64,000 nucleotides of DNA from Coprobacter tertius. Its GTDB lineage: Bacteria > Bacteroidota > Bacteroidia > Bacteroidales > Coprobacteraceae. Positions 6,962-51,049 of the stretch are shown in pieces (the stretch's first letter is position 1; every line of letters starts with the position of its first letter). The translations under genes were made by a program, and so were the position numbers. The notes beneath the pieces are model-generated. The model had not been told where the DNA came from. It saw only the letters and a list, made by a program, of their open reading frames with translations, and did not search any database. The DNA is taken from assembly GCF_024330105.1 (NCBI RefSeq), contig NZ_JANDHW010000002.1:186001-250000 (forward strand). Reading direction: 5' to 3'.

Positions 6962-9607
6962 ATGAAAAAATACATATTTCTATTACTGATTATACCGGTG
7001 TTTTGTTTGTTATCGGGAAAGAAAAGCAGTTCTGTCATTCGTCCCGGAACAATAACTTTGATGCATGAGGTGCGGGAAACTCCGTTTCCGCTTAACGGGT
7101 CGATTGTTATGCAGAATCCCCCGGCATTGATGTGGCCCGATAAATATCCTCATTTGGGTGAGGTTCTCGATGGAGTGGAAGAAACCGAGATAAAACCTTC
7201 GGTTACCTATAAAGTAAGATTATCGCGTGATTCCTTATTTTTAACTGATATAGAAGAAGCGACTCTCCATTGGGCTTTTTTCAATCCTTTTCGTAAACTT
7301 GGTCACGGTAAATGGTATTGGCAGTATGCATATTGTAGTATAAACGGGGATGAATGGTCGAAAGTGTATAATTTTACGGTAGATAAAAAAGCGGTTGTTT
7401 TCAATCCGCCATCTTTAGAAATCGTACTCGAAAAATTGCCTCGGTATCATCCGAGAGTATTTCTTGACAAAAAAGATTGGGATAATTTCCGTAAACGGAA
7501 TGCCGTTAATGAAGAGGCCTGTTGGTATATCGATCACGCAAGGACGGCGATGAATCACCCGTTGAAACCGATACAGGAAGAGATAGATACTACAAAGCTC
7601 ACAGTACTCGAGAATAGTGTACAGCGAAAATCGTATATGATAAGGGAAAGCCGTAAAGTCGTAGATCGGGAAGAAGCAAATATAGAAGCACTGGTGCGAT
7701 CTTATTTACTGACAAAAGATACCGCTTATTATAAAGCGGCGATTATTCGTATAAAGGAAATGTTATCGTGGAAGCATAATCGTTATTTTGCCGGTGATTT
7801 TAACAGTTCGGTATTGTTGTCGGTAAGTGCGCTGGCGTATGATACGTTTTATGATCTTATGGGATGTAAAGAAAAAGATATGCTATTGCAGGAGATACGG
7901 GAAAGCGGAAACCTTTTTTTCGGAGAATTCGTGAATCATCTCGAAAACCGAATTGCCGATAACCATGTTTGGCAAATGACCTTGCGGATTCTGACTATGG
8001 CTGCTTTTGCTTCTTATGGTGATTTACCTGAAGCTTCTGTTTGGGTAGATTATTGTTATAATATGTGGGTTGCCCGTTTCCCGGGGTTGAATGATGATGG
8101 TGCCTGGCATAACGGAGATTCTTATTTTCAGGTAAATATACGTACGTTGATCGAAGTACCCGCATTTTATTCTCGTATTACCGGATTCGATTATTTCGCT
8201 GATCCGTGGTACAAAGGATCGATTTTATATACACTGTATCATCAGTTACCGGAGTCTGTGTCGGCCGGTCATGGTAACTCGCATGAAAATATGAGGAGTC
8301 CCAATGGGGCGAGGGTAGGGTATGCCGATGCACTGGCTCGTGAATGCAATAGTAGTTATGCAGCCGATTATGTCAGAAAGATTATAAGCCATAATGCCGA
8401 TGTATTGAAAAAATCGTTTTTAGGTAAATCGGGAGATCTTACATGGTATCGGTTAACCACAAAAAAGAAATTACCTGAAGGGGGCTCCGGTTTAGAAAGT
8501 CTCCCTCATACCAAAGTATTTCCTCAGACCGGTCTGGCTACGATGCATACCAACCTTGGGAATACCGGAAAAAATGCGATGCTTTCTTTCCGGTCGAGTC
8601 CTTACGGTTCTACTTCCCATGCTTTGGCCAATCAAAATTCTTTCAATACATTTTATGGGGGCCAGCCTATTTTTTATAGCAGTGGTCATCGTACCGGTTT
8701 TACAGATGCCCATTGTATGTATTCTTATCGGAATAGCCGGGCTCATAATACTATTCTTGCCGATGGAATGGGACAGAAGATCGGTACGGAAGGATACGGG
8801 TGGATCCCTCGTTTTTATGAAGGAAATAAAATATCGTATTTTGTCGGAGATGCTTCCGATGCTTATGGAAAAGTAATTTCTCCGTTATGGTTGGAACGAG
8901 CCCGTTTGTCCGGGATAGAATTTACACCGGAGAACGGGTGGGATAATAATAAAGTAAAGACATTCAGACGTCATATAATTATGCTTGGAGACAGCGGTTT
9001 ATTTATCATATACGACGAACTTGAAGGTTACGAACCTGTTGCTTGGAGTTTCTTATTACATACGGTGGAATTTCCCATGAAAGTTGAAAAAAAGAACGAT
9101 TATATATGGGTGAGGGGAGAAAATAAAACGGGTGTTTCGGATGCTGTTATATTCTGTTCGGATAAAATTACGACTACGCTGACCGACAAATTTTTTTCAC
9201 CGGCAGTTAATTGGTTAAATAAAACCGATGCAAAAGGGAATTTGATTGTATATAAAAATCATTGGCATTTTTCAGCTACTACAACAAAAGTTGTTCAGGC
9301 CAGATTTCTGACGATAATGGATACTCATGGGAAAAATACGGAAAAATTGAATATCAGTTATATCCGAGGTACCTGGTCGGTAGGAGAATGGAAAATAAAA
9401 TGTAATCTTACGAGTAAAGGGAAAGCATGGCTGACAATTGTTTCGGATAAAGAAGGAGTAGGTTTGTTATACAATATTTCGGATATGAAAATAGGTAAAC
9501 GAAAGGTAAAGAACGATATAAAAGGTTCTACTGTTATTATCGATAAAGTGGAGGATAAGGAAGTGAAACGAATATTGATCGATCAAATGCCCGAGTTGGA
9601 AATATAA
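6962..9607 (+). CDS. Heparinase II/III-family polysaccharide lyase-like protein (DUF4962 N-terminal region)
   Basis: 881 residues. A signal peptide covers ~1-19. The N-terminal part (~30-140) resembles the DUF4962/Ig-like region (PPALMWPD, RLSRDSLF, YWQYAYC). An alpha/alpha-toroid follows with DNHVWQMT (His335) and DDGAWHNGDSYF (Tyr388), which match the positions of the His and Tyr catalytic pair in heparinase II-like lyases. The C-terminal beta-sandwich heparinase II/III domain starts near 500 (SFNTFYGGQPIFY, HNTILADGMGQ, RRHIIMLGD). Such enzymes cleave uronic-acid-containing glycans by beta-elimination in the periplasm; the exact substrate and PL family cannot be told by eye. It follows the SusC/SusD pair and probably acts on the imported oligosaccharide. 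The C-terminus lacks a T9SS tail. Confidence 0.8.
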   Translation: MKKYIFLLLIIPVFCLLSGKKSSSVIRPGTITLMHEVRETPFPLNGSIVMQNPPALMWPDKYPHLGEVLDGVEETEIKPSVTYKVRLSRDSLFLTDIEEATLHWAFFNPFRKLGHGKWYWQYAYCSINGDEWSKVYNFTVDKKAVVFNPPSLEIVLEKLPRYHPRVFLDKKDWDNFRKRNAVNEEACWYIDHARTAMNHPLKPIQEEIDTTKLTVLENSVQRKSYMIRESRKVVDREEANIEALVRSYLLTKDTAYYKAAIIRIKEMLSWKHNRYFAGDFNSSVLLSVSALAYDTFYDLMGCKEKDMLLQEIRESGNLFFGEFVNHLENRIADNHVWQMTLRILTMAAFASYGDLPEASVWVDYCYNMWVARFPGLNDDGAWHNGDSYFQVNIRTLIEVPAFYSRITGFDYFADPWYKGSILYTLYHQLPESVSAGHGNSHENMRSPNGARVGYADALARECNSSYAADYVRKIISHNADVLKKSFLGKSGDLTWYRLTTKKKLPEGGSGLESLPHTKVFPQTGLATMHTNLGNTGKNAMLSFRSSPYGSTSHALANQNSFNTFYGGQPIFYSSGHRTGFTDAHCMYSYRNSRAHNTILADGMGQKIGTEGYGWIPRFYEGNKISYFVGDASDAYGKVISPLWLERARLSGIEFTPENGWDNNKVKTFRRHIIMLGDSGLFIIYDELEGYEPVAWSFLLHTVEFPMKVEKKNDYIWVRGENKTGVSDAVIFCSDKITTTLTDKFFSPAVNWLNKTDAKGNLIVYKNHWHFSATTTKVVQARFLTIMDTHGKNTEKLNISYIRGTWSVGEWKIKCNLTSKGKAWLTIVSDKEGVGLLYNISDMKIGKRKVKNDIKGSTVIIDKVEDKEVKRILIDQMPELEI

Positions 9608-42061: not shown

Positions 42062-42835
42062 ATGCGATTTAAATTAATACTTTCGGTAAAACCGGAAAAT
42101 TTTGGAAATATTTTACCAGTGAGTTATCAGTATGAATTGTCTTCTTGTGTACATCGGAAGCTGACTGATAATGTGGAGTTATATGGGGATTGGTTGAGGA
42201 TGAATGGTTTTTTACCCGAAATGAATACGAAATACCGTCTGTTCTCTATTTCTAATTTTTATATTCCCCGAATCAAAGTCGAAGTCGATAGGTTGTATAT
42301 TTTGGCTAAGAGGGTTCAATTATGGATATCGTTTCTTCCTGAAAGAGGAACGGCCGAATTATTGAATCACCTGTTTTTGGGGCAAACTTTGTTGATCGGA
42401 GATCGTCACAGTAAAGTGGAATTTCTTGTAGATGAAATAATTCAGAATGAAATGCCGGATTTTACACAAACCATGAATTATTTATCTTTATCCCCGATTG
42501 TTTTAGCGAATGTACGTCCGAACAGAAGTCTTGAATATATCGGACCGGAATGTCCCGAGTATTCACAGGCCTTTATTCAGACAATTCTCGATAAGTATGC
42601 GTATTTTTACAGAAAAGAATATGCCAGTGATTTCAATTTCGATCTCGAATTACTCACTCCTGCAAAAAGAAAAGGTATCTTTATAAAAAGATTTACTGCA
42701 GATGAGACGAAAATCATCGGTTATATGTATAAATTTAAACTTACTTTGCCCCCGGTATTGCACCGCTTGATTTACAATACGGGATTAGGTGAAAAAGTTA
42801 ATTTGGGATTCGGGTGTGTCGAAGTATTAAAATGA
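42062..42835 (+). CDS. cas6: CRISPR-associated endoribonuclease Cas6, isolated
   Basis: 257 residues. The N-terminus MRFKLILSVKPENFGNILPVSYQYELSS is standard Cas6, with a possible catalytic His31 in CVHRKL. The middle has RLFSISNF, and the C-terminus carries the Gly-rich loop GLGEKVNLGFGCVEVLK that defines the RAMP fold and binds crRNA. Cas6 cuts pre-crRNA within repeats in type I and III systems. No cas gene, CRISPR array or adaptation gene occurs in this window; the neighbours are an M16 peptidase and a DUF3857 protein. Either it serves an array elsewhere in trans or it is a remnant. The reading frame and key motifs look intact, which argues for function. Confidence 0.9.
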   Translation: MRFKLILSVKPENFGNILPVSYQYELSSCVHRKLTDNVELYGDWLRMNGFLPEMNTKYRLFSISNFYIPRIKVEVDRLYILAKRVQLWISFLPERGTAELLNHLFLGQTLLIGDRHSKVEFLVDEIIQNEMPDFTQTMNYLSLSPIVLANVRPNRSLEYIGPECPEYSQAFIQTILDKYAYFYRKEYASDFNFDLELLTPAKRKGIFIKRFTADETKIIGYMYKFKLTLPPVLHRLIYNTGLGEKVNLGFGCVEVLK

Positions 42836-42944: not shown

Positions 42945-42981
42945 AAAAAATCGGGCCTTTTTAAAAGAGGCCTGATTTTTT
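42945..42981. terminator. Bidirectional terminator between cas6 and the DUF3857 cluster
   Basis: AAAAAATCGGGCCT (42945-42958) pairs with AGGCCTGATTTTTT (42968-42981), one wobble, 9-nt loop. T tracts lie on both strands. It ends cas6 (+) and the convergent transglutaminase-like gene (-). Confidence 0.85.
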
Positions 42982-44876
42982 TATTGTGTTGTACTATCGG
43001 ATTCTTTTTTCAGTACGGCTTTTACCTGATACAGTTGATTTACGTGTTTATGAAATTCATACAGTTCGTTGTATTTCGAAGCATCGAATTTTCCTGAATA
43101 CTTAATTAAGTCATATCGGGCAATTAACTTGTTATCTTGTTTGACATATCGTGTCGTAAAAGTGCCGAAAGGAGAATATATTTCGATATTCTGAGGTATG
43201 GATTCTAACGTATATCCAGAGGGTATTGTAAGTGTGATACTGTCGGTATCGTGAAATCCGTAAGGAATTATAATCGGTCGTATTCTTTCTTTTTGGGGGA
43301 GTTGTGTTATTCCTTCTCTGAAAGGATTTAAGTTTATAAACAATCTTTTCCCTGTGTTTTTAAGGATTTGTGTAGTTTTAAAGTTATAAACCAGTGATGA
43401 AAAAGGTCTTTCGTTTTCAACCTTAGTATACTCGATATTGCTTATATCAGGGTTGATGATATTTAATCGTTTTCGTATGAATTTTACTTTTTCGTCTGGT
43501 TTTAAAAGATCAAAATTCGATGTGGATATGAATTGTTTTAGTGCATTTATTTCGTTTACGAAGCCCGATATTTCTCCATTTTCATTAATACTGATATCAG
43601 CACGTATATAAGATTGGTTTTCTTGGTCGCTATAATCGGGTATTGTCGATAATTTTCCTCCATCGGGAGTTATTAGTAAGACATCATGACCGGCATGCGT
43701 TCTAAAACCAAAGGGTTCTTTAGAAGTGCATTCTAACCACAAGGTATCTTTTTGCATAGGTACGGCTACGATTTCGTGGTTAGCTTGGGCGCTGGCAAAA
43801 TCTTTTAGCAATTTTTTTTCGTTTGTATTAATAATTGTGTTATAAGCCGTTATACCTACTTCTTTTAATATTGCAGTCATATAATTAGAAAGACCTTTAC
43901 AATCTCCGAACCCCGTTTTATATACCTCGGTTGCCTCCATCGGTTGCAGTCCTCCGATACCTATTTGTATACTTATATAGCGAGTATTATTTACCAGATA
44001 ATCGTATAGTATTTTTATTTTATTTATTTGTGTTTTACATGTATCAGTCAGTTCATGTATTTTAAGCTTTAGTTCTTCTGGTAGTTTATCTCTTCCTTCT
44101 TGTAAGGCATATAGCCAGTTTCCGTAAGTTTTCCAGTCAGTCATATCTCCGGTTAAGTTTTTAAATGCGAATCTGACGGGAACTACGTACAACGAAGGAG
44201 TAATTTCTGCGAAGGGAGGAGCGTAGTATTCTTCGGTAAATGCCTGAATGGAATCGGCGCTCCAAGAATACGTATCCCCTTTTTTATCGCGGGTTATTAC
44301 AGGTTCTTTTATTCCTGAAAGAGATTTGTATTTAATCGTATTGAATCCATTTAGAGCTATACTGTATACGCTATTGATAACACTGATATTGTTTCCTTTT
44401 TGAGGGATAAATATCGGTAGACCTATAATCCTTTTTTTATATAGAGTTTCGTGTTCATAACGAACTGTATAGGGGTACTGACCTATTTGCGGTGTATAAT
44501 AATATGTTCGTCCGTCAGATGCCAAACCTTCATTGTATTCGGTAATTTTGAGATCGTTTTTTGATATTTTTTTTATTTCTTTTCCGTTTTTGTCGTAGAT
44601 AATTCCTTTGAAAGATACCAATTCCTGAAATGAATCGTTATAGGCAAAGAAAAAACCGTATTCTTTGCCGTTTTTGTTCAGTACAGTCGTAATTGTAATT
44701 TCCCGTTCTATTCCGTTATTTTCTCCTGTGAAACTAAATTCGAGTCTGTCAGCCTGTAATACAGCATCGGCATTACGGGTAAAGTATTCTGGAATATCTA
44801 TCGGTTTGTATTGGGCATTTAATGGGAAGAAACTCATAAAAGCTAAAGACAGAACCCATAAATTTTTTTTAATCAT
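42981..44876 (-). CDS. DUF3857/transglutaminase-like secreted protein, Cys-His intact
   Basis: 631 residues. Signal peptide ~1-21 (ending PLNAQ). The N-terminal DUF3857 region (~40-220) carries EREITITTVLNKNGKEYGFF and YPYTVRYEHETLYK. The transglutaminase-like core (~280-400) holds Cys326 in TGFGDCKGLSNYM and His367 in ANHEIVAV; the third position is LECTS (Glu382) where Asp is more usual. A beta-rich C-terminal domain follows. This is the only one of four adjacent relatives with the catalytic Cys and His. It starts 7 bp after the stop of the gene upstream, so it is last in the operon. Possible roles are protein cross-linking or peptidase activity in the periplasm or on the surface; substrate unknown. 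Confidence 0.85.
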   Translation of the reverse strand: MIKKNLWVLSLAFMSFFPLNAQYKPIDIPEYFTRNADAVLQADRLEFSFTGENNGIEREITITTVLNKNGKEYGFFFAYNDSFQELVSFKGIIYDKNGKEIKKISKNDLKITEYNEGLASDGRTYYYTPQIGQYPYTVRYEHETLYKKRIIGLPIFIPQKGNNISVINSVYSIALNGFNTIKYKSLSGIKEPVITRDKKGDTYSWSADSIQAFTEEYYAPPFAEITPSLYVVPVRFAFKNLTGDMTDWKTYGNWLYALQEGRDKLPEELKLKIHELTDTCKTQINKIKILYDYLVNNTRYISIQIGIGGLQPMEATEVYKTGFGDCKGLSNYMTAILKEVGITAYNTIINTNEKKLLKDFASAQANHEIVAVPMQKDTLWLECTSKEPFGFRTHAGHDVLLITPDGGKLSTIPDYSDQENQSYIRADISINENGEISGFVNEINALKQFISTSNFDLLKPDEKVKFIRKRLNIINPDISNIEYTKVENERPFSSLVYNFKTTQILKNTGKRLFINLNPFREGITQLPQKERIRPIIIPYGFHDTDSITLTIPSGYTLESIPQNIEIYSPFGTFTTRYVKQDNKLIARYDLIKYSGKFDASKYNELYEFHKHVNQLYQVKAVLKKESDSTTQ

Positions 44877-44883
44877 TCTTTAA

Positions 44884-46893
44884 TCATTTTTTTTGTATTA
44901 CAATTTGTTCGTTACATTTTCCGATCATAGCAGAATAAAAAGTTTGTAAGTCTTTGTATTCTTCAGGAAGGAAAACCGACCTTTTGTTTTCGAACATGAA
45001 TTGTATTTTGATTTTGTTTCCCGATTGTGAAGAGATAAATTTACAACTCAGTGTTTTATCGGTATTTATTATGGTTGTCGTTTTAGGGATTTCATTTATC
45101 TGATAATTTTCAGGTATACTCAATTCTATATTGTAATGTATGAGTTTATTATAATCGAATTCTATGGGGTATTTTCTGTTTACGGCGGTAAACGGAGATT
45201 CTTTAACATAATCAATTAACAATGGATTCAGGTATAACATACTTTCGTTTACGATTGCCTGTTTCGAGAATGTCGCTTTTGAAGATGCCTGGTTTAGGAT
45301 GCTGTCTGGTGCAAAACCCTGATAATCGGTAATATCACATCCAATTTCGTCCCCCCAATATTCCTTTAATTCCTCGATAGAATAATTTCCGAGAGATTTT
45401 TTGTAAGCATAGGCATTTTGTCCCGTAAACTGTATTGCAATATTTCCGGTGATAATTCCTTCATCGTTTAACTGAGCTTTAATTGTAAAACTGGCAGCAT
45501 TGCGGGAAAGATTATCTATATTTTTCCATTCTCCGTTTTCCCTGCCTTTGAAAAGACGACCTTGTTCGACAAGAAGATTTGTATCGAATACATTAATATC
45601 TCCATATTTAGAGCATCCGTCGAGATAAAAATATTTATTGTCAGCTTCTTCTACAGCGACAATAAAGGTATTTAATTTGTCTATAGTCGGAAAAGCCATC
45701 GGGATGCGGCCATTGTCACGAGTACTGATAAGTACGGGATATGCTTTTAATCCTACAGCATTGAGTGTACTGATAAGTATAAAGTTAATTTGAGCACTGT
45801 TACCTACTCCGGTTGTTAAGGCCTCTCTTATGTTTTTCCCCGAAAGGCGATATTTATTATCCCAATTTATTTTTCCTTGTACATATTTTAGTGTGGTACG
45901 AGCTTTTTCCCGGATATTTTCGATTTGAGCGATAACTTCGGTTTCTTCTTTGGGATAGGGGCATTTCATTCGTAAAAGTTTTCCGAAATTATCGTCTTCT
46001 GTAAGGTTATTTTCTAAGTCTTTCCAGGTGCGTGTGAGGGGTTGGTAGTTTCTTCCCGGAAAAGCTAATCCGTCAAGTTCGAAGGTAACTTTAGGGCAAA
46101 AATCATTAAGACACCAAATATAATTTTCGGGCTTTAATGCGGGTACTGTATCGGATATCATAATATATTTGAGCGTTTTTGTAGAAGTGTGCTGGTTTTG
46201 CATACCTTCTTGCAGAGTGAAAGTCTGTGATCCCTGTTCGGTCGTGAAATGAGGGGGAGGCCAGCCCGTGGAAATTGCGTTATAACGGTAATAGTCGGGA
46301 GCTTCGAATGATAATTTACTATGAAATACAGGAATATCTCGTTGGGTTTTCAATTCGGGAACATCCATGTAAAAATCGGAATAAAAAGTATATTTATATT
46401 CAATTACACTACCTACTTTTGCGCCGGGAAGCGTAAACTTTTTTTGCCAGTAATAATCATCGGTCTGCTCATCGAATATATATTCGTTTTTCAGTTTGTT
46501 TTTTATGATTTTACCTTTTTCGAGGTTATATACTGTGCCTTGTAGATCGATTATTTTTTCTTCGGTAGTTTCGTTGATTGTGACTTTTCTGAAATAAGGA
46601 ATCGAGATATTGGCATATTCAAGGCCTTTTTCATTGAGTATTTTTATTTTCGTTTTGTAATCGGTGACGAGTTGGAAACCTTTCTTTTCGGAGTAATCGA
46701 AATATGTTTCGGAATATTCGAAAAGGACTACCGCATCGGCTGACGAGTCGGGTGTATAGGTCGTCATTTTCAATTCGTCGTCATTTACTTTACCGTATTT
46801 AAGATTTATTTTCTGAGAGTATGAAGAGAAAATATTACATAATAATACGAATAAAAGAAAATAGCTGTTTCTTTTTTTATATACAAAGTTCAT
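44884..46893 (-). CDS. DUF3857/transglutaminase-like secreted protein lacking catalytic Cys and His
   Basis: 669 residues. Signal peptide ~1-26 (ending SYSQ). DUF3857 N-terminal half (LKYGKVNDDELKMTTY, VGSVIEYKYTF, TLPGAKVG) and a transglutaminase-like core. At the catalytic Cys the sequence is GVGNSAQINF (Ser366) and at the His it is LNTFIVAV (Thr409); the Asp is kept in YLDGCS (Asp425). It is therefore expected to lack classical transglutaminase or protease activity and may act as a binding or structural protein. About 38 bp separates it from the preceding paralogue. It is closest to the next gene in the array, with the same block order and near-identical length, which shows recent tandem duplication. 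Confidence 0.85.
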   Translation of the reverse strand: MNFVYKKRNSYFLLFVLLCNIFSSYSQKINLKYGKVNDDELKMTTYTPDSSADAVVLFEYSETYFDYSEKKGFQLVTDYKTKIKILNEKGLEYANISIPYFRKVTINETTEEKIIDLQGTVYNLEKGKIIKNKLKNEYIFDEQTDDYYWQKKFTLPGAKVGSVIEYKYTFYSDFYMDVPELKTQRDIPVFHSKLSFEAPDYYRYNAISTGWPPPHFTTEQGSQTFTLQEGMQNQHTSTKTLKYIMISDTVPALKPENYIWCLNDFCPKVTFELDGLAFPGRNYQPLTRTWKDLENNLTEDDNFGKLLRMKCPYPKEETEVIAQIENIREKARTTLKYVQGKINWDNKYRLSGKNIREALTTGVGNSAQINFILISTLNAVGLKAYPVLISTRDNGRIPMAFPTIDKLNTFIVAVEEADNKYFYLDGCSKYGDINVFDTNLLVEQGRLFKGRENGEWKNIDNLSRNAASFTIKAQLNDEGIITGNIAIQFTGQNAYAYKKSLGNYSIEELKEYWGDEIGCDITDYQGFAPDSILNQASSKATFSKQAIVNESMLYLNPLLIDYVKESPFTAVNRKYPIEFDYNKLIHYNIELSIPENYQINEIPKTTTIINTDKTLSCKFISSQSGNKIKIQFMFENKRSVFLPEEYKDLQTFYSAMIGKCNEQIVIQKK

Positions 46894-46931
46894 CGTTTAG
46901 AGGTATTTAAAATATTTATGATAATAGTAAA

Positions 46932-48917
46932 TTATTTATTTTTTTTTAAAACAATCTGTTCGGTACTTTTACTGATCAGTGCCGTGTAAAAATTCTGAAG
47001 GTCTTTATATTCTTCCGGTAGGAATAACCTTTTTTTCTTTTCGACCATAAATTGTAAATTAATTGTATTTTCGGTTGTCGATGAATAGAAACGACATATG
47101 TATGAATTATCGGGATTAACAAGCGTAGTACTTTTGGGTAACTCGCTTACGCTATAATCATCGGGGATTTTGATAGATATATTAAAATGATCGAGATTAT
47201 TATAATCGAATTCTATCGGATATTTTCTCGTCGGAGAACTAAACGGAGAACTACTCATGTAATCGACAATAAGAGGTGTAAAATATATCATATCATCATT
47301 CGTCGTAGTTTGTTTATTAAATTTTAATATAGCTGAAGCTTGGTTTATGAGGGTATCGGAATCATTTTTCTGAAAATCGTTTATTTCTATGTCGTAGCTA
47401 TTATTTGCCGATTCTTTTAGTTCGTCGAGGGTTAAAGTTCCGCATGATCTTTTAAATTCAAAAGCGCATTCACCTGTAAACTGAATTGTCATAGTACCGT
47501 CAATAAGGCCGTTTTCGTCTATTTTTGCCTGAATAAGGTAGCTGGTAGCATTTCTCGATAAATTACTCAGATTTTCCCAATGACTAACAGCAACTCCTTC
47601 GAAAAGCCGGGCATTTTCCGATAATAATTTTATATCGAGTACATTTATGTCTCCGTAAGGAGAACCGCCGTCGAGATAAAAATAAGTACTGTCTGTTTCA
47701 GCGATAGCTATAATAAAAGTATTTATTTGGTTTAGAGATGGAAATGAAGTATTAATTTTACCATTATCTCTTGTACTGATAAATACAGGATAAGCATCGA
47801 GACCGGCTGCTTTTAGCATACTTAGAAGTACGAAGTTTATTTGAGCGTTATTTCCGGTACCATTTTTTAGAGCATCGTTTGTTCCATACCCGCTGAAGCT
47901 ATAATTCCCATTCCATGATATTTTGTTCTGGACGTATTTTAATGCTTTACGGGCTCTTTCTCTCTTGTTTTCTATTTTTTTGAGGTTTTCGGCATCGTCT
48001 TTATAGGGACATTTCATTTCGAGTAATTTCCCGAAATTTTTATCGGCCATAATATTTTGTTCTAAAGTTACCCAATTTTTGGCGTAGGCTTTATAGGTAT
48101 TTCCTGGCAAAGCGATTCCATTTAATTCGAATTCGATTCTGGGGCAATAGTCATCGATACACCAAATATGGGTTTCGGGTTTTAATGCTTTTACTGTGTC
48201 GGCAATAACTTTATATTTTGTTGTTTTAGCTTGTAGGTATTCGTTTTTATATCCATTTGAAAACGAAATTGTTTGTACGCCCGATTCGCTTTTGAATACA
48301 GGTAGATCCCATCCTTTAGCTTGGGCATTGTATCGGAAATATTCGGGTGCTTCGAGACTTAGTTCACTATGCCAAATAGGGATTTTTTTCATCGTTTTAA
48401 GATCTGGAATATCTTCGATAAAGTCGGAACAAAATGTATATTTATATTCGATAACACTTCCTACTTTAGCATTAGGAAATGTAAATTTTTTTTGCCAGTA
48501 ATTCTCATCGCTCTGTTCGTCAAAAATATATTCTTTATTGAGTTTGGTTTTTATGATTTTTCCGTTTTCGAGGTTATAAACATATCCCTGTAAATCGGTT
48601 ATTTCTTCTTTTAATGATGAATTTACTTTGGAATCATAGTACGGAATTGAAATATTAACATATTTGAGACCTTCATCTTTAAGTATTTTTATTTTAGTTT
48701 TATAGTTGGTGATCAAACGTATGCCTTTATTTTCATTAAAGTCGAAATGAGAATCGGAATATTCGAAAAGTACGACGGCAACGGCTGAAGTATCAGGGGT
48801 GTACGTTGTCATCTTAAGTTCGTCTTCATTTACTTTACCGTATTTAAGACTGATGTCTTGTGCTTGAATAAGAAATAAATTCCCTAAAAAAAGGAGAGTT
48901 AAAAATGTGTGTTTCAT
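46932..48917 (-). CDS. DUF3857/transglutaminase-like secreted protein lacking catalytic Cys and His (second copy)
   Basis: 661 residues. Signal peptide ~1-19 (ending IQAQ). Same architecture as the gene downstream, with near-identical stretches such as ELKMTTYTPD and YNLENGKIIK. The Cys position is GTGNNAQINF (Asn357), the His position INTFIIAI (Thr400), and the Asp is retained in YLDGGS (Asp416). The C-terminus ends with KKKRLFLPEEYKDLQNFYTALI, shared in all three. Co-directional with its neighbours; preceded by 131 bp containing a 40-bp palindrome. Function unknown; the enzyme is presumably inactive or works by a different chemistry. Confidence 0.85.
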   Translation of the reverse strand: MKHTFLTLLFLGNLFLIQAQDISLKYGKVNEDELKMTTYTPDTSAVAVVLFEYSDSHFDFNENKGIRLITNYKTKIKILKDEGLKYVNISIPYYDSKVNSSLKEEITDLQGYVYNLENGKIIKTKLNKEYIFDEQSDENYWQKKFTFPNAKVGSVIEYKYTFCSDFIEDIPDLKTMKKIPIWHSELSLEAPEYFRYNAQAKGWDLPVFKSESGVQTISFSNGYKNEYLQAKTTKYKVIADTVKALKPETHIWCIDDYCPRIEFELNGIALPGNTYKAYAKNWVTLEQNIMADKNFGKLLEMKCPYKDDAENLKKIENKRERARKALKYVQNKISWNGNYSFSGYGTNDALKNGTGNNAQINFVLLSMLKAAGLDAYPVFISTRDNGKINTSFPSLNQINTFIIAIAETDSTYFYLDGGSPYGDINVLDIKLLSENARLFEGVAVSHWENLSNLSRNATSYLIQAKIDENGLIDGTMTIQFTGECAFEFKRSCGTLTLDELKESANNSYDIEINDFQKNDSDTLINQASAILKFNKQTTTNDDMIYFTPLIVDYMSSSPFSSPTRKYPIEFDYNNLDHFNISIKIPDDYSVSELPKSTTLVNPDNSYICRFYSSTTENTINLQFMVEKKKRLFLPEEYKDLQNFYTALISKSTEQIVLKKNK

Positions 48918-48995
48918 GGTTTTGTGTTTAAGTTTTACATTAGGCAGTTACGTAAAAATTGTAGGTTAATGAGCTGTGTGATGTATAATTTTATG

Positions 48996-49035
48996 TATAA
49001 TCTATCACTGTAAAATTTTACAGTGATAGATTATA
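48996..49035. terminator. 40-bp perfect palindrome, probable terminator or processing hairpin
   Basis: 20-nt arms (TATAATCTATCACTGTAAAA and its exact complement), no spacer, in the 131-bp gap between the first and second reverse-strand paralogues. It could end the first transcript or make a stable intra-operon hairpin that lowers expression of downstream genes. Confidence 0.6.
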
Positions 49036-49048
49036 TATGTGTGATTGA

Positions 49049-51049
49049 TTAATTTATTTTTTGGAGTTCGATGTATTCTTTACATTGTTGAGTAAGTGAA
49101 TTGTAAAAATCGTGTAATTCTCGATAGTTGTCTGGTAAATAGAACATTTTTTTTCTTTCGAAGGTATATCTGACTTGTATAATATCACTCCTTTGAGAAA
49201 TAGAATAAATGCATTTAATAGAGCTATCGGCAGAACTTAAAAAGTAAGAAGAAGGTAATTTTTTGATGAAATAACCTTGTGGAATTTCGAGATTGACTTC
49301 TATTTCGGTTTTAGTATTATAATCGAATTCTACCGGATATGTTCTGTTTTCTTCAGAAAAAGGATTTTTTTGCATAAAATTGATAATAAACGGGCTAAAC
49401 AGAATTCGATCTCCCGAAACTTCTGCTTTGGTATCAAAATCGAAAACTTCGGAATTTTGGAAAACTGTTTTATCCGGGAATTCTCCTTTATAATTCTTTA
49501 TATTTACGTTATACATCCGAGAGGAGTTATCTGTTCTTTCGGTCATACTGTTCGCCTGATCGTAAAGGCGTTTAAAATTATATGCGCATTGTCCGGTAGA
49601 TTGCATCGAAAATGTTCCGTTTACCTCTCCTGATGGTTTAAGTTTTGCTTCGATTCGGATAATTTGGGTATTTGGAACCAGGTCGTTCAAATCTATCTTT
49701 TCGCATTTACCATTCAGGATACGTGCATTTTCAGCTAGAAGTGACTCATCTAATACATTGAGTCCTCCGAATGGGGAACCGGCATCCATGAAAATATAAG
49801 ATCCGTTCGGTTTTTTTACCGCTACGATAAATGTTGTCATACGGTCGATCGATATTAAATTATCGGGTATTCGGCCTGAAGTTCGTCGGCTGAGGATTAC
49901 TGGGTAAGGTTTTAGTTTTGCAGCTTTTAAAGCGCTCATCAAAACAAAATTTAATTGTGCATTATCTCCTGTTTTATACTGAACCGTATTATTTATATTC
50001 TTAACAAAGAGCTGGTATTTTCCATTCCATTTCCATTTATCCCTTACCAAATTCAGTACGGCCAGGGCACGTTCCTCTTCGTTGGTTATTTTAAGTAGGG
50101 GTTTTATTTCTTTTTTATATGGATATTTAAGTTTGTAGTATTTACCAAAATCAGGGTGGGTATCGAGGTAATGTTCTACATCTTGCCATGTGTTGGTATA
50201 ATGATGGTATGTGCCCGGTCTGAATTTAATTTCTTTAAGTTCGAATTCCAGTCTCGGCCGAAAGTCGTCGGGGCACCATACATAATCGCCGATTTTAAAA
50301 GCGGGTATATCATTTTTAGATAATTTATAGATAGTCGTATTTGTATTTGTTGGTTTATTGGATCGGTCGATTCCAAAAAGAAATGTTTTTTTTCCTGTTG
50401 ATTTTGTAACAGAGGGTGTCGGATATCCTGATGCTTTTACATCATAGATGAAATATTCGGGTATTTCTGCTTTTTTTTCACAATGCAACATCGGGATGTC
50501 TTTTTGTATGTCCAGCATGGGGATATACATAAACAAATCGGAACGGAGAATATATTTATATTCGATGACACTTCCCGGTTTTACATCGGGAAAAGAAAAT
50601 TTCATTTCTTTTGTTATGTCGCTGGTATGCCCGTCGTAAATATTTTCCAGTGTAAGATTTTTTTGTACGATTTTCCCATTTACCAGATTATAAGTGGCCC
50701 CCTGAAGTTCTTCGATCTTTTCTTCGACGGTTTCGTTTAATGTGCGTTTAGAGTAGTACGGAATAGTAATACTTGCATATTTAAGACCTTCGGTAGTTAA
50801 TATTTTTATTTTAGCCGCATATTGCGTAACAACCTGAAAGCCTTTTATGGGATCGGCATCGTAATATACATTTGTATATTCATATATAACCGCTGCTTCC
50901 GCGCTGGTGTCTTTGGCATACGAATTCATTTTTAATTCGTCGGTAGTTACATTACCATATTTAAAACTAATATTTTGGGAATAAACGGTTATTATCACAA
51001 AAAATGTAAATAATAATACAGCACTTCTTCTTATCATATTCGATCTCAT
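49049..51049 (-). CDS. DUF3857/transglutaminase-like secreted protein lacking catalytic Cys and His (third copy, most diverged)
   Basis: 666 residues; the start at 51049 or the in-frame ATG at 51037 both leave a signal peptide (ending VYSQ). N-terminal DUF3857 region (FKYGNVTTDELKMNSY, KPGSVIEYKYILRSD) and transglutaminase-like core, in which KTGDNAQLNF (Asn363) replaces the catalytic Cys and MTTFIVAV (Thr406) the His; FMDAGS keeps Asp422. It is the most divergent of the three degenerate copies and comes first in transcription order, 38 bp downstream of a TATCTTTG -7 element. The C-terminus shares FERKKMFYLPDNYRELHDFYN with the others. Function unknown. Confidence 0.85.
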   Translation of the reverse strand: MRSNMIRRSAVLLFTFFVIITVYSQNISFKYGNVTTDELKMNSYAKDTSAEAAVIYEYTNVYYDADPIKGFQVVTQYAAKIKILTTEGLKYASITIPYYSKRTLNETVEEKIEELQGATYNLVNGKIVQKNLTLENIYDGHTSDITKEMKFSFPDVKPGSVIEYKYILRSDLFMYIPMLDIQKDIPMLHCEKKAEIPEYFIYDVKASGYPTPSVTKSTGKKTFLFGIDRSNKPTNTNTTIYKLSKNDIPAFKIGDYVWCPDDFRPRLEFELKEIKFRPGTYHHYTNTWQDVEHYLDTHPDFGKYYKLKYPYKKEIKPLLKITNEEERALAVLNLVRDKWKWNGKYQLFVKNINNTVQYKTGDNAQLNFVLMSALKAAKLKPYPVILSRRTSGRIPDNLISIDRMTTFIVAVKKPNGSYIFMDAGSPFGGLNVLDESLLAENARILNGKCEKIDLNDLVPNTQIIRIEAKLKPSGEVNGTFSMQSTGQCAYNFKRLYDQANSMTERTDNSSRMYNVNIKNYKGEFPDKTVFQNSEVFDFDTKAEVSGDRILFSPFIINFMQKNPFSEENRTYPVEFDYNTKTEIEVNLEIPQGYFIKKLPSSYFLSSADSSIKCIYSISQRSDIIQVRYTFERKKMFYLPDNYRELHDFYNSLTQQCKEYIELQKIN

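Follow-up and report, generated by a model that had tools for sequence, protein, structure and literature searches.

Non-catalytic transglutaminase-like paralogues encoded beside an intact copy in Coprobacter tertius and other Bacteroidota

The genes considered here lie in a 64,000-nucleotide window of the Coprobacter tertius genome (GCF_024330105.1, contig NZ_JANDHW010000002.1, positions 186,001-250,000), and all feature coordinates are window positions. Four full-length open reading frames (ORFs) encoding DUF3857/transglutaminase-like proteins occupy 42981-51049 in tandem, all on the minus strand. From the tandem's first gene to its last, they are:

49049..51049, minus strand: gene D, non-catalytic D-type paralogue, 666 aa, Asn363/Thr406/Asp422; the tandem's first gene
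46932..48917, minus strand: gene C, non-catalytic D-type paralogue, 661 aa, Asn357/Thr400/Asp416
44884..46893, minus strand: gene B, non-catalytic D-type paralogue, 669 aa, Ser366/Thr409/Asp425
42981..44876, minus strand: gene A, intact DUF3857/transglutaminase-like protein, 631 aa, with a signal peptide; DUF3857 48.6 bits, Transglut_core 30.1 bits; the tandem's last gene

Throughout, 'A-type' denotes the intact lineage and 'D-type' the phylum-wide non-catalytic lineage that includes the window's B, C and D. The intergenic gaps are 131 bp (C-D), 38 bp (B-C) and 7 bp (A-B), and no exact match to the Bacteroidetes-type promoter TTTG-N-TAnnTTTG was found 5' of the array. All four proteins pass the curated Pfam cut-off for DUF3857 (PF12969, 24.6 bits), with B, C and D scoring 41.2, 47.4 and 34.3 bits. 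For Transglut_core (PF01841, 23 bits), A and C (25.0 bits) lie above the cut-off, B (21.4 bits) falls just under it, and D gives no match. B is 55% identical to C and 39% to D; A shares about 20% identity with each of the three.

To place these proteins in their families, we aligned 103 D-type and 58 A-type proteins, drawn from 60 fetched loci and 13 from named organisms (e.g., Rufibacter, Pontibacter, Salinimicrobium and Salegentibacter). The triad positions of A and B are encoded as follows:

43899..43901, minus strand: A Cys326, the catalytic Cys in a GDCK motif; Cys in 58/58 A-type proteins
43776..43778, minus strand: A His367, the catalytic His in an NHE motif; His in 58/58 A-type proteins
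43731..43733, minus strand: A Glu382, the third triad position, in WLECTS; Glu in 54/58 and Asp in 4/58 A-type proteins
45796..45798, minus strand: B Ser366, at the Cys position
45667..45669, minus strand: B Thr409, at the His position
45619..45621, minus strand: B Asp425, at the acid position; invariant in 103/103 D-type proteins

Profile-profile alignment with hhalign pairs Ser366, Thr409 and Asp425 of B with Cys326, His367 and Glu382 of A (E 3e-58). Thus, the Cys and His expected at the canonical clan CA positions are present in A and absent from B, C and D, which carry Ser or Asn in place of the first and Thr in place of the second. The original prediction, made from the window alone, had described four tandem DUF3857/transglutaminase genes of which one is intact, and both this description and the residues it quoted (Cys326/His367 in A, and the triplets listed above for B, C and D) are borne out. 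Its statement that the acidic residue is kept as Asp holds for B, C and D, but not for the intact A, where the acid is Glu382. A Cys-His-Glu triad is known from an active member of the superfamily, an arylamine N-acetyltransferase (cited in PMC4866520), and the A-type is probably an exported, presumably periplasmic, transglutaminase-fold cysteine enzyme with such a triad.

A first search recovered homologues of B, C and D from 10 of 41 genomes, and the D family profile at a loose threshold recovered them from 164 of 395 Bacteroidota genomes. Among the 103 aligned D-type proteins, the Cys position is occupied by Ser (32), Val (29), Ile (15), Ala (9), Gln (6), Asn (5), Gly (3), Thr (2), Leu (1) and Cys (1), and the His position by Tyr (65), His (13, never together with Cys), Thr (7) and others; the sole member with Cys at the first position has Phe at the second. 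The acid position is Asp in every member. The commonest triad states are Val-Tyr-Asp (29), Ser-Tyr-Asp (14) and Ile-Tyr-Asp (14). A Ser-His-Asp triad, possibly a serine-type site in a transglutaminase fold, was noted in D-type members at loci L093, L095, L100, L102, L105, L122, L125 and L130. Whether the loss seen in the window is conserved among homologues can thus be answered: none of the 103 carries both Cys and His. We also looked in the sequences for another Cys or His brought into the active site, and no such alternative column is conserved in the D-type alignment.

These counts bear on the idea that D-type proteins are enzymes with altered chemistry, e.g., Ser-His-Asp in some members and Asp-based in others. 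Papain-like enzymes with shifted triads are known (PMC10318531), and Ser/His/Asp stands at the triad positions of 10/103 D-type proteins on a background of invariant Asp. However, there is no nucleophile or base common to the whole lineage, most members have neither at the triad positions, the window copies offer Ser or Asn with Thr, and the D-type alignment shows no conserved substitute column of Cys or His. We consider altered chemistry unlikely.

The D-type signature consists of G364, N370, L373, P386, S390-T391, G395, P402, N408 and D425-A426 (B numbering), and conservation is highest in residues 364-426, the former active site (Mann-Whitney p 4e-6): 12 of the 63 columns within it are conserved at 85% or more, compared with 30 of 576 elsewhere (Fisher p 3e-4). 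By a heuristic, a hydrophobic N-terminal stretch is present in 103/103 D-type and 57/58 A-type proteins. In phylogenetic trees the D-type forms one group (support 98 and 99), as does the A-type (100), and the window's B, C and D fall in one clade within the D-type (99-100). The original prediction had three of four window copies losing their residues; the trees (support 98-100) instead make B, C and D local duplicates within one D-type clade, sharing an old loss. On the simplest interpretation, the catalytic residues would have been lost long ago at the base of the D-type lineage, the window's three copies being later duplicates. Flavobacterium-like loci carry two D-type copies that are up to 92% identical to their counterparts elsewhere and 42-49% identical to each other; since such copies resemble counterparts in other genomes more than one another, they are old, separately maintained genes. 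That the degenerate copies are decaying pseudogenes, as the missing Cys and His alone might suggest, is hardly tenable: they are full length in nearly all genomes, have signal peptides, share a conserved signature across 103 homologues and include old paralogues that have been retained. In this the earlier view of the window copies as full-length, signal-peptide-bearing and not decaying is upheld. The inactive copies have the look of working partners conserved over a long time, not of dying genes.

Structure prediction agrees with these alignments. The AlphaFold2 (AF2) model of B, built from 16 sequences, has a mean predicted local distance difference test (pLDDT) score of 86.7 and a predicted template modelling (pTM) score of 0.79. 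In it, the helix 366-379 starts at Ser366, the strand 409-415 starts at Thr409 and the strand 421-424 ends at Asp425, all in a block with pLDDT >80. The helix and strand placement of a transglutaminase, which structure prediction had been suggested to check, is therefore kept at all three positions, and the core of B is, as modelled, a transglutaminase arrangement with the first two triad residues exchanged. Apart from one N-terminal hydrophobic helix (the signal peptide), the model is a soluble fold. In the Protein Data Bank (PDB) it matches 3KD4 best, across its full length (E 2.4e-25, TM by target 0.68). 3KD4 was also the only solved relative found by profile searches; a single-sequence PDB search with A and B returned nothing relevant.

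In whole-genome searches of 395 Bacteroidota genomes at strict thresholds, with presence lists compiled by hand, the A-type was found in 91 genomes and the D-type in 115; there was no genome with A and without D, and 24 with D and without A (Fisher p 2e-67, a value that overstates independence because the surveyed genomes are related). The co-occurrence of intact and degenerate copies, another point the original prediction had raised, thus holds in 91/91 A-bearing genomes. Each strict A gene adjoins a D gene, as judged by comparing match positions by eye and reading the remaining cases at the locus; the sole doubtful case is genome G305, where the D gene is cut by the contig end. At 58 of the 74 fetched loci A and D are directly adjacent on the same strand; the gap between them has a median of 6 bp, in several cases the genes overlap by 1-4 bases, and each locus has a single A with one to three D copies. 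Because these 74 loci were chosen by D matches, they are a more biased measure than the 395-genome survey. Across Bacteroidota, then, the secreted transglutaminase-like A-type is, as far as the genome sequences tell, always encoded beside at least one full-length non-catalytic copy.

No other recurrent neighbour gene was common to the whole locus set. The genes flanking Flavobacterium-like loci were considered as functional partners and rejected, as they look housekeeping (tRNA deacylase, RsgA, MazG, AroA and QueA types) and are not common across families. Several loci (L067-L073, L075 and L109-L113) keep a D-type gene with no A-type adjoining; zero surveyed source genomes of L109-L113 pass the strict A threshold, and most L109-L113 members have Gln at the Cys position.

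On these data the array may be read as an exported enzyme/pseudoenzyme operon that has expanded locally, its dead copies serving as binding or regulatory partners of A. We give this reading, in which both complex formation and role are inferred from sequence, a probability of roughly 0.5. The D-type retains the beta-sandwich of DUF3857 along with the transglutaminase core and the beta domain at the C-terminus, and its former active-site cleft (G364, N370, S390-T391-R392, G395, N408 and D425) might hold A's substrate or A itself. Such binding could stabilise A, activate it or aim it at particular targets, and candidate reactions of A would be proteolysis, deamidation or cross-linking. Three D-type copies beside one A would then provide several alternative partners for one catalytic subunit.

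Several observations weigh against this reading. D can work without A, as it is found alone in 24 genomes, and at 15 of the 74 fetched loci no A adjoins the D gene. Gene order is variable, D being first at 40 and A first at 22 of the fetched loci. No natural A-D fusions were found; candidates, namely 1250-1325-aa ORFs matching the A profile, were rejected because they consist of TPR, DUF3857 and one intact transglutaminase core. The A-D distance correlation, although high (r 0.93), is uncorrected for common descent, from which it is expected, and we do not take it to prove that A and D interact. Finally, the model of A (6 sequences) has a mean pLDDT of 70 with the catalytic core below 50, too poor for superposition on B.

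The genomes with D and without A also favour an alternative in which D-type proteins are stand-alone ligand binders. With the cleft as a site for some peptide or polymer, they would act on the same ligand as A, in one pathway, and form no complex with it. The polar residues round the former active site (N370, S390, T391, N408 and D425) are among the most conserved, as such a role would lead one to expect. What it leaves unexplained is that A is never found without D and that the two are almost always directly adjacent, with genes overlapping or nearly touching, and we regard it as a possible but somewhat doubtful account. In the 24 genomes, at least, a role independent of A exists. The asymmetry, with A requiring D but D at times doing without A, suits a D that is an indispensable partner of A and can also act by itself, e.g., as a binding protein.

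Pairing of this kind is not confined to the window. Another contig of the same genome carries a second pair, in which the gene for an intact 649-aa protein (C338/H377/D393) precedes that for a 579-aa protein lacking both Cys and His:

L136:5672-7618 and 7643-9379 (G000:C8): second pair; the pseudo member is a 3KD4 homologue
L166:4283-8193 and L167:2572-6474: third pair type, seen in two further genomes of the order; an intact and a degenerate DUF3857 gene lie side by side

Both second-pair genes are widespread in the order, and in 20/20 further loci they lie side by side, the intact gene leading. The intact member keeps Cys, His and Asp in 22/22 cases; in its partner the Cys position is never Cys and the acid position is Ser in 19/22. 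The 579-aa partner matches 3KD4 at E 7.5e-118. This places 3KD4, which is labelled 'putative protease' but lacks Cys at the Cys position, on the non-catalytic side of the second pair, and it appears from its sequence to be a pseudoenzyme. 3KD4 (BDI_1141 of Parabacteroides distasonis), the sole DUF3857/DUF3858 structure that turned up, has the same three-part architecture as B; the two nevertheless belong to different subfamilies, with about 12% identity, close relatives of 3KD4 outside the D-type clade, and an acid position that is mostly Ser in the 3KD4 subfamily as opposed to the invariant Asp of the D-type. D-type and 3KD4-like partners separate in the tree, but the data do not reject that all non-catalytic members go back to a single origin (p-AU 0.16), and independent loss in each pair type is accordingly not claimed.

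It might be argued that the linkage means little, the pairs having arisen by tandem duplication and the copies having diverged to unrelated jobs. Tandem duplication is indeed evident, in the 55% identity of B and C and in copies at L105, L116 and L123 that are 53-61% identical. Nevertheless, A-D adjacency persists across many Bacteroidota families at low identity (mean ~30%), and comparable pairing recurs in two other subfamilies, where drift after duplication would break pairs up. We therefore consider an explanation by linkage alone quite improbable. More broadly, and only tentatively, DUF3857-class transglutaminase-fold enzymes of the Bacteroidota envelope might, in at least three subfamilies, work only when assembled with non-catalytic paralogues dedicated to them, and expansion of the dead subunit might give one catalytic subunit alternative specificities.

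Use of the transglutaminase fold without catalytic residues, for scaffolding or binding, is familiar from Rad4/XPC and erythrocyte protein 4.2 (see also PMC10318531). Unlike the D-type, these are eukaryotic and intracellular, lack DUF3857 and DUF3858, and are not operon partners of an active paralogue. Closer in setting is RloB of Pseudomonas aeruginosa, an inactive transglutaminase with seven transmembrane helices (PMC12239564), together with the similarly annotated hm2192 (PMC12096838). Like the D-type, they are bacterial, envelope-located transglutaminase-like domains without catalytic residues, and they have genetic phenotypes, namely suppression of protease-mutant defects and overproduction of vesicles (PMC12239564, PMC12096838). 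However, RloB and hm2192 are membrane proteins, whereas Pfam and the model give B neither seven transmembrane helices nor such a membrane domain, and the proteins encoded alongside RloB are an aspartic protease and one of the ATP-grasp type, not an active transglutaminase paralogue. Within Bacteroidota, TPR-DUF3857-transglutaminase proteins of about 1250 aa have the same modules with an intact Cys-His-Asp/Glu; they differ in being single long proteins with N-terminal repeat domains, in a separate clade. ORFs of this uncharacterised subfamily were noted at L138-L151 and L157.

Two other features were noticed. A Cas6-type CRISPR gene (Cas_Cas6_C, E 2.4e-21) at 42062-42835 on the plus strand points at the last gene of the array; the window showed no direct repeats of at least 24 bp in close spacing. 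An open frame of 926 aa at G000:C24:2326-3756 matches Transglut_core in two separate places.

DUF3857 is named in the literature searched only as a gene adjoining lolA in Xanthomonas (PMC6341742), and, subscription papers and preprints aside, no account of the function of a DUF3857 pair was found, so that a prior description may exist. Transglutaminase-fold pseudoenzymes are known singly; a phylum-wide, strictly linked envelope operon of enzyme and pseudoenzyme is absent from that literature. With the pairing described here, an uncharacterised domain family becomes a two-gene system, open to ordinary deletion and co-purification, in Bacteroidota of both gut and environmental origin.

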